Positions 9,304 to 28,487 of a stretch of DNA of 28,487 nucleotides are shown here, piece by piece. Positions within the stretch are counted from its first letter, which is position 1. Every line of letters starts with the position of its first letter. The position numbers and the translations under genes were made by a program. Where the stretch lies: the IMG/VR virus record IMGVR_UViG_3300027865_000035, positions 1-28,487 of that record; one strand, given 5' to 3'. The notes beneath the pieces are model-generated. The model searched no databases. It was not told where the DNA came from and worked only from the letters and a program-made list of their open reading frames with translations. Source of the stretch: a virus.

Positions 9304-12189
9304 TTACCTATCAATTGTATAAGTAAATTGACCCCACATTTGTGTGGGTGCTCCTAATGTACCAGTTGATGTAATCACAAAAACACTATTTGCTGGGATA
9401 GTTGCATCAGCAAACCCCGACGCACCAAATTTAGAGCCAGTGCCCACATTTATAGTACCAGTTAATATATCAGTAGTTGCTCCAAATACGCCGCCGTCAG
9501 AAATCCAGCCACAATCAACACCTGTTACTGAACCGCCGTCAACTTCAAATGTAACAGATGAACATGTGATTGCATATTTAAAACCTTTTGTAACCATATG
9601 AATCGAACCCAGATATGCGGTTGTGGCAGTATCAATAAATACTTCAAAAGTTAAAGACAGTTGTTTAATCGTATTCGTTGACTGCTCCAAAGTATTGCTT
9701 GCTGTTCCAAATGGATAAACCTCATTTGCACCTTGCCCAGTATCTACCGTTGTAAACGTAGCAGAAGTAGGTGAATTTATATAACCATTCGAAGTTATTG
9801 ACAATCCATTCAAATCTATTATCGATGCGGTTATTTCAACCTCATCAACTGCATCAATATCCAATTTTCCAGCTATACTTGAATAAATTGCTTGTGCTGA
9901 ATTACGAAATTGAAATACCGTATCTTCAAACATTTCTTGTCTGCCTGACCATACATTTGAACCGTCAAGTGCTGGTATTACGTTACCCGATATACCCACA
10001 TGTAATCCATCAAGTAAATCAGCATTAAGATTAGTAACAACTGTAGATGAAGCTGCAATAAATGGAGGTGTACCAAAAGCAACATCACTTTCAAACTGTT
10101 CAGCTGTTATCTTAAAACTTCCTGCATCCCAATCAGAAGTAAGAGGAGTCGTTCCATCCTGTTTTATATAAGTTGTTGCAAGTGCTGATAATTCAGTATC
10201 TAATATTGCATGAGTATTGGTACCTGTTGACTTAATTGCAATATGTTCTATCGTGCCATCCGTTTCAGCAGTAAGTGCGATTACTCCAGAAGCATCAGGC
10301 GTTTGCAATGTTCGAGTATTAGCAGTAGTTACATTCGTACCTACATCAAATGCCATTATTTTTGTTACATCTGCTTCATCAAATACCGTAAATTGATTAT
10401 CTGCAAAATTTGCTCCGCCTGCTGATCCACCACCACCACCACCACCACCAGCTTCTCTTAAATCGGCTGTTGATATATGCGAAAGAGTAGCTAATCCACC
10501 AGTCCATCTTAATGTCATTCTGCATATCGGTACGCCCACGGAAGATTCAAGAGAAAATTCTCTCGGCATAACTTCGTTATTAAATTTATCAACATCATTT
10601 TCTGCTGATGTCTGCGATACATAACTCCCACTTGGTAACTGGCACATAATCGGCGCATATTCACCGCTTTTATTGCCTACTGCAAAAAAGAATACATTAA
10701 AATATTTATTACTTAATGATGCACCAGCAGAATCCGCTACTATATCAGCTAAATCATGTATATCGTGGTAAGCATCACCATTCCAATTAACCACATGAAC
10801 ATCGTCTGACCTTGTATCTTTAGCACTTATAGTATGACGATGCATTTGATAAATAATACCTGTTGTAGATTTAAAATATGATTCCGTTCCGCTAACATAA
10901 TCAAAATATGATGAATTTGTATCTTGATCTGTCCCATCAGGGTCAAGTCCTGAAAAGTAATATGCACCATCCCTTCGTGATCTTTCAGCAATATGCAACA
11001 TATGTCCCATGTTGTCTGTCCCAGCAAGATGGTCATTCCAATTTTGATTAATGTATGCACCATCAGAATCAATATATGATGTACTTGCTAAAAGTAAATA
11101 AGCAATTTTTATATGTTCTTCTGTTGTCGGAAATTCTGTTGTAGACACAACCATCTTCTTTGTATCGGATGTTATACAAACATAGTTTCCTTGCGGTGAA
11201 GAATCTAATCCATGAGTTAAAACAACGGTTGATGATGGAGTTGTATCAAAAGTAGTTAATCCATCACTAAATTGCATCGTTAAATCACCGCCACCAGATT
11301 GTTCTACGCTTAATATTGCTTGTTCTGCCGAAACAGTTACTAATGCATTAAAACTTTCAACAAATGAACCGTTAACAAATGAACGTGGAGTAAATGTCGA
11401 TGCGTGTACACCATCTAAAAGATCAGCATTAAGATTTGTGTTAAGTGTAATTGAATCTGTTGCATAAGGTTGTGTCCCCGTTGCTACATCCGATATAAAA
11501 TTCAATGCAGTTATAACAAATGACCCAGCATCCCAATTTCCTGTCAATTCAACCGTGCCATTTCTATTAAGATAATTTGCAGTCGCAGAAGATAATTGCA
11601 AATATGTCGCAGTTGCGGAAGATAATTGAAGATATGTTGCGGTTGCCGATGATTTGGTCAAAAATGTTCCTGTTGATACTATTAAAGCATCAACATCTGT
11701 ACGCAATGATGCTGTATCAACCCATAAATCAAATATATAGCCCTCAAGTGTTGAAGTTGATGCCCATAGATCAAATATATAACCTTCGAGTGTCGATGTG
11801 GATGTTTCTAAATTTGTTATACTAACTTGCAATGTTGTTGTACTTGTTGCTAATAACGATAATTGAGTGTCGATCTGTGCGTGTGTATTCGTTCCAGTAG
11901 ATAATATATTTATATGATCAATAACAGCATTAATGTTTAATAGATTATCTATAATCAACTTTTTTGTAGTCGGTGTACCGGCTACATCATCAACAACAAC
12001 AAGCAAATCCGATGTTGTTGGTGCAGTCAATTCGGATAATTCAGTTATTTTACTATCAGCAAATACTAAATTAGTACATAAAACAATAATAGTAATTGAC
12101 ATAACTATCATATTAAAAAATATGCATATCTTTCTAAATCCTAAATTAGTAGCAATTAGTATTTGATTAGTAATTAGGAATTTTTTCAT
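9304..12189 (-). CDS. Large fibre protein with N-terminal hydrophobic signal
   Basis: A 961-aa protein. The first ~45 residues include a hydrophobic stretch ending SITIIVLCTNLVFA before DSKITELSEL, which reads as a signal peptide. Internal ATGs at codons 27 and 30 could be the true start; none has a strong ribosome site. The head after it (ELTAPTTSDLLVVVDDVAGT) is typical of phage fibre N-termini. A shaft follows with tandem repeats: STSTLEGYIFDLW twice and SSATATYLQL two to three times. Two copies of a module (ELTGNWDAGSFVITALNF…LNADLLDGVH; PLTSDWDAGSFKITAEQF…LNADLLDGLH) flank a central baseplate-upper-protein-like domain. A run of nine glycines (AGGGGGGGGGSAGG region) acts as a hinge. The receptor-binding role is inferred. 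Confidence 0.75.
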   Translation of the reverse strand: MKKFLITNQILIATNLGFRKICIFFNMIVMSITIIVLCTNLVFADSKITELSELTAPTTSDLLVVVDDVAGTPTTKKLIIDNLLNINAVIDHINILSTGTNTHAQIDTQLSLLATSTTTLQVSITNLETSTSTLEGYIFDLWASTSTLEGYIFDLWVDTASLRTDVDALIVSTGTFLTKSSATATYLQLSSATATYLQLSSATANYLNRNGTVELTGNWDAGSFVITALNFISDVATGTQPYATDSITLNTNLNADLLDGVHASTFTPRSFVNGSFVESFNALVTVSAEQAILSVEQSGGGDLTMQFSDGLTTFDTTPSSTVVLTHGLDSSPQGNYVCITSDTKKMVVSTTEFPTTEEHIKIAYLLLASTSYIDSDGAYINQNWNDHLAGTDNMGHMLHIAERSRRDGAYYFSGLDPDGTDQDTNSSYFDYVSGTESYFKSTTGIIYQMHRHTISAKDTRSDDVHVVNWNGDAYHDIHDLADIVADSAGASLSNKYFNVFFFAVGNKSGEYAPIMCQLPSGSYVSQTSAENDVDKFNNEVMPREFSLESSVGVPICRMTLRWTGGLATLSHISTADLREAGGGGGGGGSAGGANFADNQFTVFDEADVTKIMAFDVGTNVTTANTRTLQTPDASGVIALTAETDGTIEHIAIKSTGTNTHAILDTELSALATTYIKQDGTTPLTSDWDAGSFKITAEQFESDVAFGTPPFIAASSTVVTNLNADLLDGLHVGISGNVIPALDGSNVWSGRQEMFEDTVFQFRNSAQAIYSSIAGKLDIDAVDEVEITASIIDLNGLSITSNGYINSPTSATFTTVDTGQGANEVYPFGTASNTLEQSTNTIKQLSLTFEVFIDTATTAYLGSIHMVTKGFKYAITCSSVTFEVDGGSVTGVDCGWISDGGVFGATTDILTGTINVGTGSKFGASGFADATIPANSVFVITSTGTLGAPTQMWGQFTYTIDR

Positions 12190-24537: not shown

Positions 24538-24903
24538 TTAAAACCCGTTCCCGTACCCGTTCCCGTTCCCGTTCCCGTACCCGTCCCCGTACCCGTTCCC
24601 GTACCCGTCCCCGTACCCGTACCCGTTCCCGTACCCGTACCCGTCCCCGTTCCCGTTCCCGTTCCCGTTCCCGTACCCGTCCCCGTTCCCGTTCCCGTTT
24701 CCGTTCCCGTCCCCTTCCCCGTTCCCGTTCCCGTCCCCGTCCCCGTTCCCGTTCCCGTTCCCGTCCCCGTCCCCGTTCCCGTTCCCGTACCCGTTCCCGT
24801 CCCCGTCCCCGTTCCCGTTCCCGTTCCCGTACCCGTCCCCGTCCCCGTACCCGTTCCCGTAACTATTCTGATTTTCGTCGTAATTTATAGAATTTTTTGC
24901 CAT
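24538..24903 (-). CDS. Asn/Tyr/Asp-Gly dipeptide-repeat protein
   Basis: A 121-aa protein. [16 protein letters not shown] is followed by about 53 X-Gly dipeptides, X being Asn, Tyr or Asp (one Glu), to GNGF. The codons are AAC, TAC or GAC followed by GGG, so variation is confined to the first codon base. AAGGAG stands five bases ahead of the ATG and the start lies inside the end of the upstream gene, both good signs of translation. GYGDGNG-type low-complexity proteins occur in other phages and mobile elements, sometimes fused to or next to the WGTT-type protein that precedes it here. It has no predicted fold, would be acidic and flexible, and its role is unknown. The mRNA is very G-rich in regular triplets. 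Confidence 0.75.
24544..24861. repeat. 53-unit degenerate hexamer array CCCGTN
   Basis: Fifty-three head-to-tail hexamers CCCGTN on the plus strand. I counted the last base: T 26, A 13, C 14, G 0. Only two units deviate elsewhere (TCCGTT and CCCTTC). The minus strand is (GGGNAC)n. The array makes up most of the dipeptide-repeat gene. Confidence 0.97.
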
Positions 24904-25223
24904 ACTTTCTCCTTACAGTCAATTGTAGAGATAACGGTTAAATAATCAAATTGAACCACTCCGTACATTTTATCCAAAACAGTATCTGATAATTTACCGT
25001 TTTCTGCTAATTCTCCTAATCCTTGAGTAGTTCCCCATTTTCGCACATTATATGCATTACGCAATATACAATCATTTCCGTCTCTCGTAAATATACCTAC
25101 CATTATCCAACCTCTTTGAAGAATAACAATCTTAATGTCACTTACATTTTCTTTTGTCGATTCCTCCAATTGATCCTTAATCTTTTCATACGTCTCATTA
25201 CTTACTTCCAATGTCTTTGTCAT
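24885..25223 (-). CDS. Conserved phage protein with WGTTQGLGEL core
   Basis: A 112-aa protein. Residues 1-25 form a helix (MTKTLEVSNETYEKIKDQLE). The rest, IVILQRGWIMVGIFTRDG, RNAYNVRKWGTTQGLGELAE, LDKMYGVVQFDYLTVISTID then [10 protein letters not shown], matches a small beta-rich family that I recall from many phages (ILQRGWVxVG…RxWGTTxGLGExA…TxLD…V…TIDC…W; possibly listed as DUF6948). Its function is unknown. Its last codons hold the ribosome site and start of the dipeptide-repeat gene, so the two are coupled. Beyond its own stop, its frame would read Thr-Gly repeats. Confidence 0.75.
   Translation of the reverse strand: MTKTLEVSNETYEKIKDQLEESTKENVSDIKIVILQRGWIMVGIFTRDGNDCILRNAYNVRKWGTTQGLGELAENGKLSDTVLDKMYGVVQFDYLTVISTIDCKEKVWQKIL
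24909..24914 (-). promoter_or_regulatory. Ribosome site of the dipeptide-repeat gene
   Basis: AAGGAG followed by AAAGT and ATG. It lies inside the end of the upstream reading frame and is the main reason for treating the repeat frame on this strand as translated. Confidence 0.85.
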
Positions 25224-26583: not shown

Positions 26584-28293
26584 TTATCTTCTCCTTGACA
26601 ATCCCCTCGTCTCAAATGCTCCAATATCAATCTGTCTGTTCTGCGGTCTTGTGATATTCATGTAATCTCGTCCTATCATCGATATTACAGAATTGTCTCC
26701 GACATCTTTGCATGGGCTATCTCTGCCAATAACAAATGAGTTTTCAATAAACTGTGGATCAGCATTTATACTTTCATCATCCCAGTAAGGCATAATACCA
26801 CCCCCAAAGTAACAGTTATTATTTCCGCTTAAAAAATCTCCTGATAAACCTTCGTAATAACCTTCACCTGGGTTTGATATGATAATGTTATTTTTAACCA
26901 CAACTGAATCCGGTGAACCCCCAACATTAATCTCACCATTATTATTATGATAAAATATGTTGTTGTAAATATGCCAGTTACCCCCATTGTCTCCGCCACC
27001 AACGCCTCCCACAATCATTCCGGCATAACCTCTATGTCCGTTAAAAGCTACGATGTTATTGTAAAAGTAACAGTTTCGTATGAACTCATAGTTACCACTT
27101 GTCGGGTCACCGCCACCCAGTACCGCTCCATACATCCCGTTGTGATGAAAATAGTTATCATGAATGTAGATATTATCAATCCAATCCCCGACATTGTGAC
27201 CGTAAAGCTGTATCCCTTGACCCCACTCATTGTACGCAAACTCATTCCAGCCAATATAAATATAATTATGCCAGCCATAGCCTCCCAGGTACAGCGGGTA
27301 AGCCTTTGTTGGGGCTGTTTGACCTCTTGAGTCCACGCTTGCATCACACGCATAGTTACCGTAAAAGTATAGATACTGTTGCCCGCCGTCTGCACCGCTG
27401 AAGCTGGCTGCTGACTTACCGCCATACGTCGTTGATATATCATTGCCGATGAACTTGATATGGTCACTTGAGCCTCTATTAGCCCAAGCGGTCACACTAC
27501 CATTGCCCCGTAGTATAAACTTAGAGAATGTCCAATAGCTCAAATGATCTGGCTCTGACGTTCCATGCCTACGGATAGCACATTGTGTCGTATTATCCCC
27601 AATCTGTGCTACTTCGCCAGGATATGATGCTACCCCAATGTAATTATTCTCTGATCCGTTGTTGTGGTTGTTGCTCCAGAAGTCGATTACAGCGTCCCAG
27701 CTGTCGATATTAGCGTATATTCCTGCTTTTAGGTATATTATGTCTCCCGCTTCAATTTCCCTAGCCTTTTTGGCTGTACGCCATGCAGTCGCTACACTTA
27801 ACCCGTCATTGCTATCATTGCCAGTCGGGGATATGAAATAGATATGATTTAACCCTATTGACCTGCAATAAAACGGTAACGAATTGCTTGTGAATCCATT
27901 GGATGTAGTCACCCTTAACGCTGTCCGTCCAGGTGCTATACTTGAGTTAAGCCAGAATGTTACACGTTCTAATCCCCTGGCAGTTGTTGGATTGTCTGTT
28001 GCTCCCCATTCAGCAAAATCAGATTGCTGATTTAATGTTGTTCTGCCAATCATGACTGAACCTGGTCTATTGCCTAAATTAACCCCCCATACCGTAACTG
28101 CTGCGCCTTTAGTCTCGCTACCTTCCCATCCAGTTTTCATTGCATCAGTAAAATCTACAAACATTATTCTTGTTTCAGTACCAAACTTCCTGGTTTTTGG
28201 TACAGGCTCTATTTTTGTTAGAGGTTTTATGCCATAGATAACCCCGATAACAATTACAGCTAACGCAAGAATCGAACCAATAAGTTTAATCAT
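26584..28293 (-). CDS. Membrane-anchored beta-helix surface protein with IPT-like domain
   Basis: I place the start at the ATG at 28293 (569 aa), after GGAGGAG. Residues 1-25 (MIKLIGSILALAVIVIGVIY) are one membrane helix, a type II anchor or uncleaved signal. Residues ~55-145 look like an IPT/TIG-type domain (GAAVTVWGVNLGNRPGSVMI, GRTALRVTTSNGFTSNSLPF). From IYFISPTGNDSNDGLSVATA onward it is a DUF1565/right-handed beta-helix: repeated rungs such as NIYIHDNYFHHNGMYGAVLG, NWHIYNNIFYHNNNGEINVG. The end, DPQFIENSFVIGRDSPCKDV then QIDIGAFET, is the usual C-cap. Such proteins are often polysaccharide lyases or binders; no catalytic residues can be assigned. By eye it is less AT-rich than its neighbours, which hints at transfer. 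Confidence 0.75.
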   Translation of the reverse strand: MIKLIGSILALAVIVIGVIYGIKPLTKIEPVPKTRKFGTETRIMFVDFTDAMKTGWEGSETKGAAVTVWGVNLGNRPGSVMIGRTTLNQQSDFAEWGATDNPTTARGLERVTFWLNSSIAPGRTALRVTTSNGFTSNSLPFYCRSIGLNHIYFISPTGNDSNDGLSVATAWRTAKKAREIEAGDIIYLKAGIYANIDSWDAVIDFWSNNHNNGSENNYIGVASYPGEVAQIGDNTTQCAIRRHGTSEPDHLSYWTFSKFILRGNGSVTAWANRGSSDHIKFIGNDISTTYGGKSAASFSGADGGQQYLYFYGNYACDASVDSRGQTAPTKAYPLYLGGYGWHNYIYIGWNEFAYNEWGQGIQLYGHNVGDWIDNIYIHDNYFHHNGMYGAVLGGGDPTSGNYEFIRNCYFYNNIVAFNGHRGYAGMIVGGVGGGDNGGNWHIYNNIFYHNNNGEINVGGSPDSVVVKNNIIISNPGEGYYEGLSGDFLSGNNNCYFGGGIMPYWDDESINADPQFIENSFVIGRDSPCKDVGDNSVISMIGRDYMNITRPQNRQIDIGAFETRGLSRRR

Positions 28294-28487
28294 ATCTCCT
28301 CCATTATCCCGACCTCGACCTCGACCTCGACCACGACCTCGACCTCGACCTCGACCTCGACCACGACCTCGACCCCGACCCCGACCACGACCTCGACCCC
28401 GACCCCGACCTCGACCCCAACACCGACCCCGACCCCGACCCCGACACCGACATCGACCTCGACAAAGAAACCTACAAAGCAATCGAA
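28290..28487 (-). CDS. Possible C-terminal part of an upstream gene encoded by the hexamer array
   Basis: A frame open from the window edge to a TGA that overlaps the beta-helix ATG (ATGA). It would read FDCFVGFF then Val-X repeats (X Glu, Gly or Val) and end VGIMEEI. The stop-start overlap matches the rest of the operon. The start lies outside the window and no ribosome site can be checked. The other minus frames read Ser-X (stops early) or Arg-Gly (runs into the beta-helix gene). Confidence 0.3.
   Translation of the reverse strand, partial: FDCFVGFFVEVDVGVGVGVGVGVGVEVGVGVEVVVGVGVEVVVEVEVEVEVVVEVEVEVGIMEEI
28296..28302 (-). promoter_or_regulatory. Ribosome site of the beta-helix gene
   Basis: GGAGGAG lies two to three bases ahead of the ATG at 28293. 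It supports this start over an upstream in-frame extension through the hexamer array. Confidence 0.75.
28310..28459. repeat. 25-unit degenerate hexamer array CGACCN
   Basis: Twenty-five head-to-tail hexamers of the form CGACCN on the plus strand, with decaying units to about 28465. I counted the last base: T 12, A 3, C 10, G 0. Three units deviate elsewhere (CAACAC, CGACAC and CGACAT). It lies upstream of the beta-helix gene and runs toward the window edge. Confidence 0.95.

Follow-up and report, generated by a model that had tools for sequence, protein, structure and literature searches.

The closest described systems, as judged by predicted fold, are the Sm, LSm, SmAP and Hfq proteins. Sm-family proteins usually carry disordered tails in cis. 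The disordered tail of E. coli Hfq has an acidic C-terminal tip, which competes with nucleic acid and binds to the basic Sm core (PMC5606850). Also relevant are DUF6948 (Pfam PF22253), a domain to which Pfam assigns no function, the low-complexity regions surveyed in PMC6821194, which include short-period repeats in small phage proteins and in phages are rich in Ala, Gly and Pro and depleted of aromatic residues and of Arg, and diversity-generating retroelements and other templated diversification, in which variation is concentrated at defined positions. The repeat arrays analyzed here neighbor genes for partner proteins that, in the S1 and G1 subfamilies, are predicted to adopt the Sm fold, but these proteins have no significant sequence match to the Sm-type families and the low-complexity tail is a separate gene. 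One partner subfamily (G2) matches DUF6948 strongly and the partner in the window weakly; a link between that domain and a repeat tail was absent from the sources searched. Unlike the phage low-complexity regions of the survey, the tails are built on W/R or Y/D/N, and unlike diversity-generating retroelements the arrays vary by unit duplication and loss, with no reverse transcriptase or template noted in the ORF list of the window (the family scans covered selected genes). Taking the evidence jointly, we are nearly certain that the arrays are coding repeats, that their restricted base usage is a by-product, that they are linked to a gene for a predicted Sm-type fold and that they gain and lose units.

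The window, the whole stretch of DNA that was analyzed, is an entire IMG/VR virus contig that is recorded as linear, is 28,487 bases long and has genes for a phage terminase and portal. It contains two hexamer arrays, both detected by TRF, which have a design in common and lie on the same strand, as the first-pass annotation had stated. Array one (24544-24861) comprises 53 hexamers of the form CCCGTN, with a sixth base of T in 26, C in 14, A in 13 and G in none and with two deviating units, and reads on the minus strand as (GGG NAC)n, or Gly-[Asn/Asp/Tyr], with 51 GGG, 25 AAC, 13 GAC and 12 TAC codons. Array two (28310-28459) reads on the minus strand as (TCG NGG)n, or Ser-[Arg AGG/Gly GGG/Trp TGG]. 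Our recount agreed with the earlier description of array two as 25 CGACCN units with a sixth base of T in 12, C in 10, A in 3 and G in none, but the claim of five fixed bases was slightly overstated, being true of 22 of the 25 units; the three that deviate at a "fixed" base (CAACAC at 28418, CGACAC at 28442 and CGACAT at 28448) cluster near the distal end. The reported absence of G from all 78 variable sites of the pooled arrays was likewise reproduced. With independent sites the chance of this is ~2e-10 for equal bases and 6e-6 for the window's own G content, although the true odds are less extreme because units arise by duplication. Short tandem repeats with units of 30 and 42 bp also occur at 11579-11653 and 11721-11804, inside a 961-aa protein (9304-12189).

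Array one is, and array two probably is, the C-terminal coding end of a tiny phage protein in which two amino acids alternate. Supporting this assignment was the position of stop codons: among the matches listed, 54 of the 69 closed CGACCN arrays had a stop in the TCG NGG frame at -6 to +12 nt from the array end, against 2-14 for any of the remaining five frames, and the GGG NAC/TCC frame (Gly-[Tyr/Asp/Asn/Ser]) had one in 20 of 40, compared with 2-9 in the other frames. Upstream of the array, most complete cases had a short anchor with a start codon, e.g., MNAAIMRVGYER, MRASKQKYR and MGRKIVSEEGQNSY. The tail protein consists of an anchor of ~8-18 residues followed by Ser-[Arg/Trp/Gly]n or Gly-[Tyr/Asp/Asn/Ser]n and then a stop. 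The tail gene of array one (24538-24903, minus strand; 121 aa) has this form, with a 15-residue anchor common to relatives such as L322, an alternating (G-N/D/Y)n array in one frame and an end at GNGF, where the stop follows directly. An AAGGAG resembling a ribosome-binding site (24909-24914, minus strand) precedes its ATG by 5 nt.

Immediately upstream is the partner gene (24885-25223, minus strand), which encodes a 112-aa, DUF6948-like protein with a predicted Sm/LSm fold and shares its last 19 nt with the tail gene, making array one a clear module of the G1 type. The window partner matched PF22253 with E=2.6e-4 and 21.5 bits, under the 27-bit curated cut-off, and all 17 of the 17 G2 partners matched strongly (best E=3e-33); neither the tail nor the partner of the window had a match in PHROGs, and the matches in NCBIfam all fell far below its cut-offs. 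Among the matches listed, the gene upstream of the array could be read in 75 cases, and 67 of the 75 encoded proteins grouped in a single BLAST cluster. The partners were divided into the subfamilies S1 (A2), S2 (A3), G1 (A4, that of the window) and G2 (A5, DUF6948 proper), of which S1 and S2 are related to each other, as are G1 and G2. A single homologous superfamily of S and G partners, as that first cluster had suggested, was rejected, as BLAST links between them were few and the hhalign probability was 1-3%; the few links are probably due to a shared N-terminal extension. As a separate observation, N-terminal extensions (such as TLEVSNETYEKIKDQL or NIDDLTIGxAKELAxLF) are shared and interchangeable between S and G partners, as if swapped between families (examples are window 24885-25223, L032:3002-3340, L024:1190-1561 and L237:3056-3457).

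The tail gene is physically linked to this predicted Sm/LSm-type gene (DUF6948 or S1/S2), usually overlapping or touching its stop codon. Queries with the partner proteins alone retrieved 366 (S1), 416 (G1) and 338 (S2) loci, and 106 loci were retrieved with one G2 protein, the A5 alignment being too divergent to scan with. When adjacency was scored on the best 80 loci per subfamily, with contig-end cases removed, 283 of 309 loci had a same-strand tail next to the partner (S1 71/78, S2 65/77, G1 73/76 and G2 74/78), counts that are not independent since some loci are near-duplicates (e.g., L402-L406). About 11 of the 26 loci without an adjacent tail had an array elsewhere in the locus, and arrays more than 1.2 kb from a partner were found in only 9 loci over 683 kb. 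The tail preceded the partner gene in 14 loci, and a Ser-x tail just upstream of the partner was seen in L254, L260, L273, L274, L284, L302 and L311. Relative to the stop of the partner, the tail started at -4 in 21 of 60 S1 and 17 of 65 S2 cases and at -19 in 46 of 76 G1 cases, other G1 offsets being -16, -13 and -22; the G1 ATG is usually formed on the conserved terminal Trp codon of the partner. A programmed frameshift fusing partner and tail was rejected because inspection of the overlap by eye revealed no consistent slippery site. S and G modules as a complementary pair in one phage were also rejected, the combination being rare (1 of 50 contigs). That contig (G013, the source of L336) is the only one of the 50 G1 contigs that also has an S1 partner gene (213-524), and the match contains an in-frame TAG.

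The first-pass annotation had read the absence of G as a three-base rule common to both arrays and as a pointer to a shared mechanism of growth or diversification. To examine base usage more widely, pattern scans of viral contigs were made with N free at the variable site and arrays of at least 12 units were kept, which gave at least 122 arrays (76 CGACCN and 46 CCCGTN among the matches listed). Among the CGACCN matches listed, 55 of 76 arrays used A, C and G (no T), 10 used A, C and T (no G) and 10 used all four bases; among the CCCGTN matches listed, 31 of 46 used only A and C and 10 used A, C and T. In many CCCGT arrays the units are of three kinds, CCCGTA, CCCGTC and CCCGGA, with differences at two positions. 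The common factor across related arrays is therefore three hexamer types, not three bases. Exactly three amino acids covered 90% of the variable sites in 105 of 139 arrays, and 92 of 139 had exactly three major hexamers. Since CGG and AGG both encode Arg, arrays of the A,C,G class and of the A,C,T class specify one set of amino acids, and the missing base is set by the Arg codon of the array (AGG or CGG) and by the absence of His.

Codon choice was assessed on loci retrieved without use of the array. Identity of Ser codons was 0.994 (S1) and 0.973 (S2) inside an array and 0.27-0.28 from one array to another; the corresponding values were 0.96-0.97 and 0.49-0.61 for Arg codons and 0.93-0.99 and 0.62-0.69 for Tyr, Asp and Asn codons. 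The missing base is thus a consequence of the codons chosen array by array, the outcome that the first-pass annotation had named as refuting its rule. Depending on the array the main Ser codon was TCG, TCT, AGC, TCA, AGT or TCC, with the Ser-[R/W/G] pattern kept throughout, and the main Gly codon was GGC, GGG, GGT or GGA. TCN and AGY codons are more than one substitution apart, and therefore the peptide pattern is what is retained. The base rule is a by-product of a three-letter amino-acid alphabet in which any one array spells each letter with a single codon. Two other candidate explanations for the base usage were rejected: on inspection, none of the array frames of these units (Ser-x, Gly-x or others) acquires a stop, whichever base occupies the variable site, which removes stop-codon avoidance, and GC content was only weakly related to the Arg codon (medians 0.505 for AGG-type and 0.575 for CGG-type, P=0.02).

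These data bear directly on two alternatives at the level of nucleic acid. The first is that a templated or mutagenic mechanism varies one position of the hexamer and is unable to insert one base, which would account for the many unrelated arrays with one variable position and three bases. However, the excluded base differs among arrays and some arrays use all four, S and G arrays follow different amino-acid alphabets in one reading frame, the set CCCGTA, CCCGTC and CCCGGA varies at two positions and still gives three codons (Tyr/Asp/Ser), and near-identical phages differ chiefly by blocks of units. We consider such a mechanism extremely unlikely, and the three-base rule is largely refuted by base usage in at least 122 arrays together with the homogeneity of codons in each. 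The second alternative is that the nucleic acid is itself the functional object, e.g., as a recombination site or as an RNA ligand of the Sm-like protein, with the open frame incidental. The predicted Sm-type fold of the neighboring protein and the regularity of the repeats at the DNA level would fit this, but the peptide pattern stays intact over disjoint Ser codons (TCN and AGY) and differing Gly codons, an in-frame stop directly follows the array and the start codons overlap the partner gene, and we judge this alternative very unlikely. Of the shared mechanism suggested by the first-pass annotation, growth by a common process stands, but there is no single forbidden base.

The coding repeats change mostly by gain and loss of unit copies. 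Unit k-mers with k=6 recurred 219 times, compared with 61.4 in shuffles (s.d. 9.8), and in pairs of loci with identical partner-gene DNA the tails differed by blocks of units (by 5 units in L347/L348 and by 20 in L245/L247). In Rheinheimera Barbavirus isolates the partner differed at 0-1 of 315 bases and the tails ranged from 69 to 83 aa, the variation comprising gains of one unit or of two as well as some altered units. The comparison of unit order in near-identical phages, which the earlier annotation had left to decide between duplication and change in place, thus points mainly to gain and loss of blocks, but change in place or conversion could account for some of the single-unit differences (Tyr/Asn), and L420 and L422 differ more than simple blocks account for. 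Change mainly by whole-unit gain and loss homogenizes codons within each array. The 115 Barbavirus records (L482 of Rheinheimera phage Barba9A, 3810-4019, and related loci) form a natural series of tail arrays beside a near-invariant partner. In L527, in which the tail gene follows the partner, Gly-x switches to Arg-Val midway and back, resembling two compensating frame shifts.

AlphaFold2 models of the S1 and G1 partners had pLDDT values of 92.5 and 80.6, respectively. Nearly all of the top 50 PDB matches of the S1 model were Sm/LSm proteins (best E 3.6e-4), among them 1i8f with a by-target TM-score of 0.73, and the Foldseek top 50 PDB matches of the G1 model were mostly Sm/LSm, including 3by7 and 1d3b (best E 9e-4). 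The best structural match of the model for the window's family was 3BY7 (E=9e-4), an Sm/LSm-like protein of metagenomic origin, at 14-18% identity. By sequence, the Pfam LSM model matched one of 17 G2 members (E=0.024), S1 and S2 matched neither the LSM nor the Hfq models, and sequence profiles matched none of the solved Sm chains. The models thus predict an Sm/LSm fold for the partners, and because sequence methods gave no confirmation we refer to an Sm-type predicted fold rather than to members of the Sm family.

We speculate that the Sm-type protein would form a nucleic-acid-binding ring on which the translationally coupled tail peptide would dock through its anchor, the repeat standing in, from a separate chain (in trans), for the disordered, charged low-complexity tail that in other Sm-family proteins is present in cis. 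The repeat would give charge, aromatic residues and flexibility, with tails acidic in the G class and basic/aromatic in the S class, and the tail would tune nucleic-acid binding or assembly during infection; copying of units would alter its length and order fast while selection would hold the alphabet. Consistent with this, the mean tail charge was approximately +10 in S and -9 in G, and the median charge of the partner domain was -2 in S and +2 in G, although S1 alone was near zero and the complementarity is driven by S2 and G1, families that are not independent points. This function, the most economical model, is drawn by analogy with Hfq and we put it forward tentatively. Combined with the coding repeats, by-product base rule, gene linkage and unit turnover, it forms the explanation toward which we lean overall. 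The pair may represent a widespread, undescribed two-component system of phages, a possibility we hold with less than even confidence, in which an Sm-fold protein and a separate, fast-evolving "ternary" low-complexity peptide, its tail sequence renewed by unit duplication, would come together during infection in an assembly or condensate that binds nucleic acid.

Two other functions were weighed against this proposal. Alternating Gly-x and Ser-x repeats could yield sheet-like or sticky assemblies, so the tail might work outside nucleic-acid biology, e.g., as a structural or adhesive polymer, with the Sm-like fold of the partner serving only protein-protein assembly; that no conserved Sm sequence motif was found in the partners fits such a role. 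We find it somewhat unlikely given that partner and tail tend to opposite charge and that, in the annotated isolates examined, the pair is often among early or replication-type genes (DNA polymerase, exonuclease, SSB and DnaD) and not structural ones, though in Pectobacterium phage Koroua it adjoins tail genes. It is unlikely that the pair is instead a two-gene regulator of host machinery, inhibiting transcription termination or RNA turnover, or a toxin-antitoxin-like system, since among the matches listed there was no credible sequence or fold match to Rof or to a toxin family. In favor of a regulator are the small, coupled gene pair, the weak resemblance of the N-terminal extension of the window partner to a short hypothetical family and the precedent of Rof, an Sm-like protein that acts as an inhibitor of Rho (PMC11018626).

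Among cultured or complete phages the pair occurs in Rheinheimera Barbavirus (115 records), Pectobacterium phage Koroua and Iodobacter phage PhiPLPE, and it is also present in Vibrio phage IKEMa6-1, Eggerthella phage PMBT5 and Manatee Spring genomes. Thirteen loci were found in bacterial genomes (Nitrospirae, Deltaproteobacteria, Actinobacteria, Saprospiraceae, Acidobacteria, Chloroflexota and others), 12 of them with a G-type tail or Gly-rich frame downstream. A literature search, with preprints and most subscription journals outside its scope, returned no paper on DUF6948 or the tail motifs, so that the earlier view of the arrays as a candidate for something undescribed is borne out by a widespread gene pair with no description in the literature searched. 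The more than 1,100 matching IMG/VR loci (S1, G1 and S2 queries) and the cultured phages make the proposal directly testable, and DUF6948, an otherwise unexplained domain, gains a near-constant genetic partner. With the tail a peptide in its own right that comes in two or more chemically opposite forms, spelled with many different codons, the module would be a natural experiment on the role of low-complexity tails. In annotated isolates the products of the pair are labelled "hypothetical protein" or misnamed. The tail gene is absent from the annotation of Iodobacter phage PhiPLPE (L485, around 1190-1440), was apparently called in another frame (MAMALAMA...) in Chlorobiaceae phage CV-1-33 and is annotated as "lamprin" in ctGfd272, these oddities being located at L485 ~1190-1440, L486 1786-2031 and L490 1734-2048.

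Array two was more difficult to place because it lies at the right edge of the contig, where assembly through a repeat is least certain. Its open frame (28304-28471, minus strand) reads VSLSR(SMSVSGSG...SRSRSG) and ends with a TAA at 28304-28306 directly after the array; upstream are an in-frame TAG (28472-28474) and the contig edge, with no good start. No anchor, convincing start or partner was visible, the upstream flank being beyond the contig end. It does have the S-class unit set and the S-class ending, SRSG followed by the stop, and is probably an S-class tail whose partner lies beyond the contig end, though truncation, decay or misassembly at the edge may have shaped it or, less likely, its frame may be Val-x. 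The neighboring gene downstream (26584-28290, minus strand), which encodes a 568-aa protein with a weak right-handed beta-helix match, is outside the module, and it had no relative in the collection searched that could lead to the missing flank. In the Val-x reading, array two would be Val-[Glu/Gly/Val] and the C-terminus of a gene entering from beyond the contig end; this frame is open to the contig end and its TGA stop overlaps the ATG of the beta-helix gene at 28290 (ATGA). We regard that reading as improbable, as the stop directly after the array was in the Ser frame in 54 and in the Val frame in 12 of 75 arrays among the matches listed, and the window has its own Ser-frame TAA in the same position.
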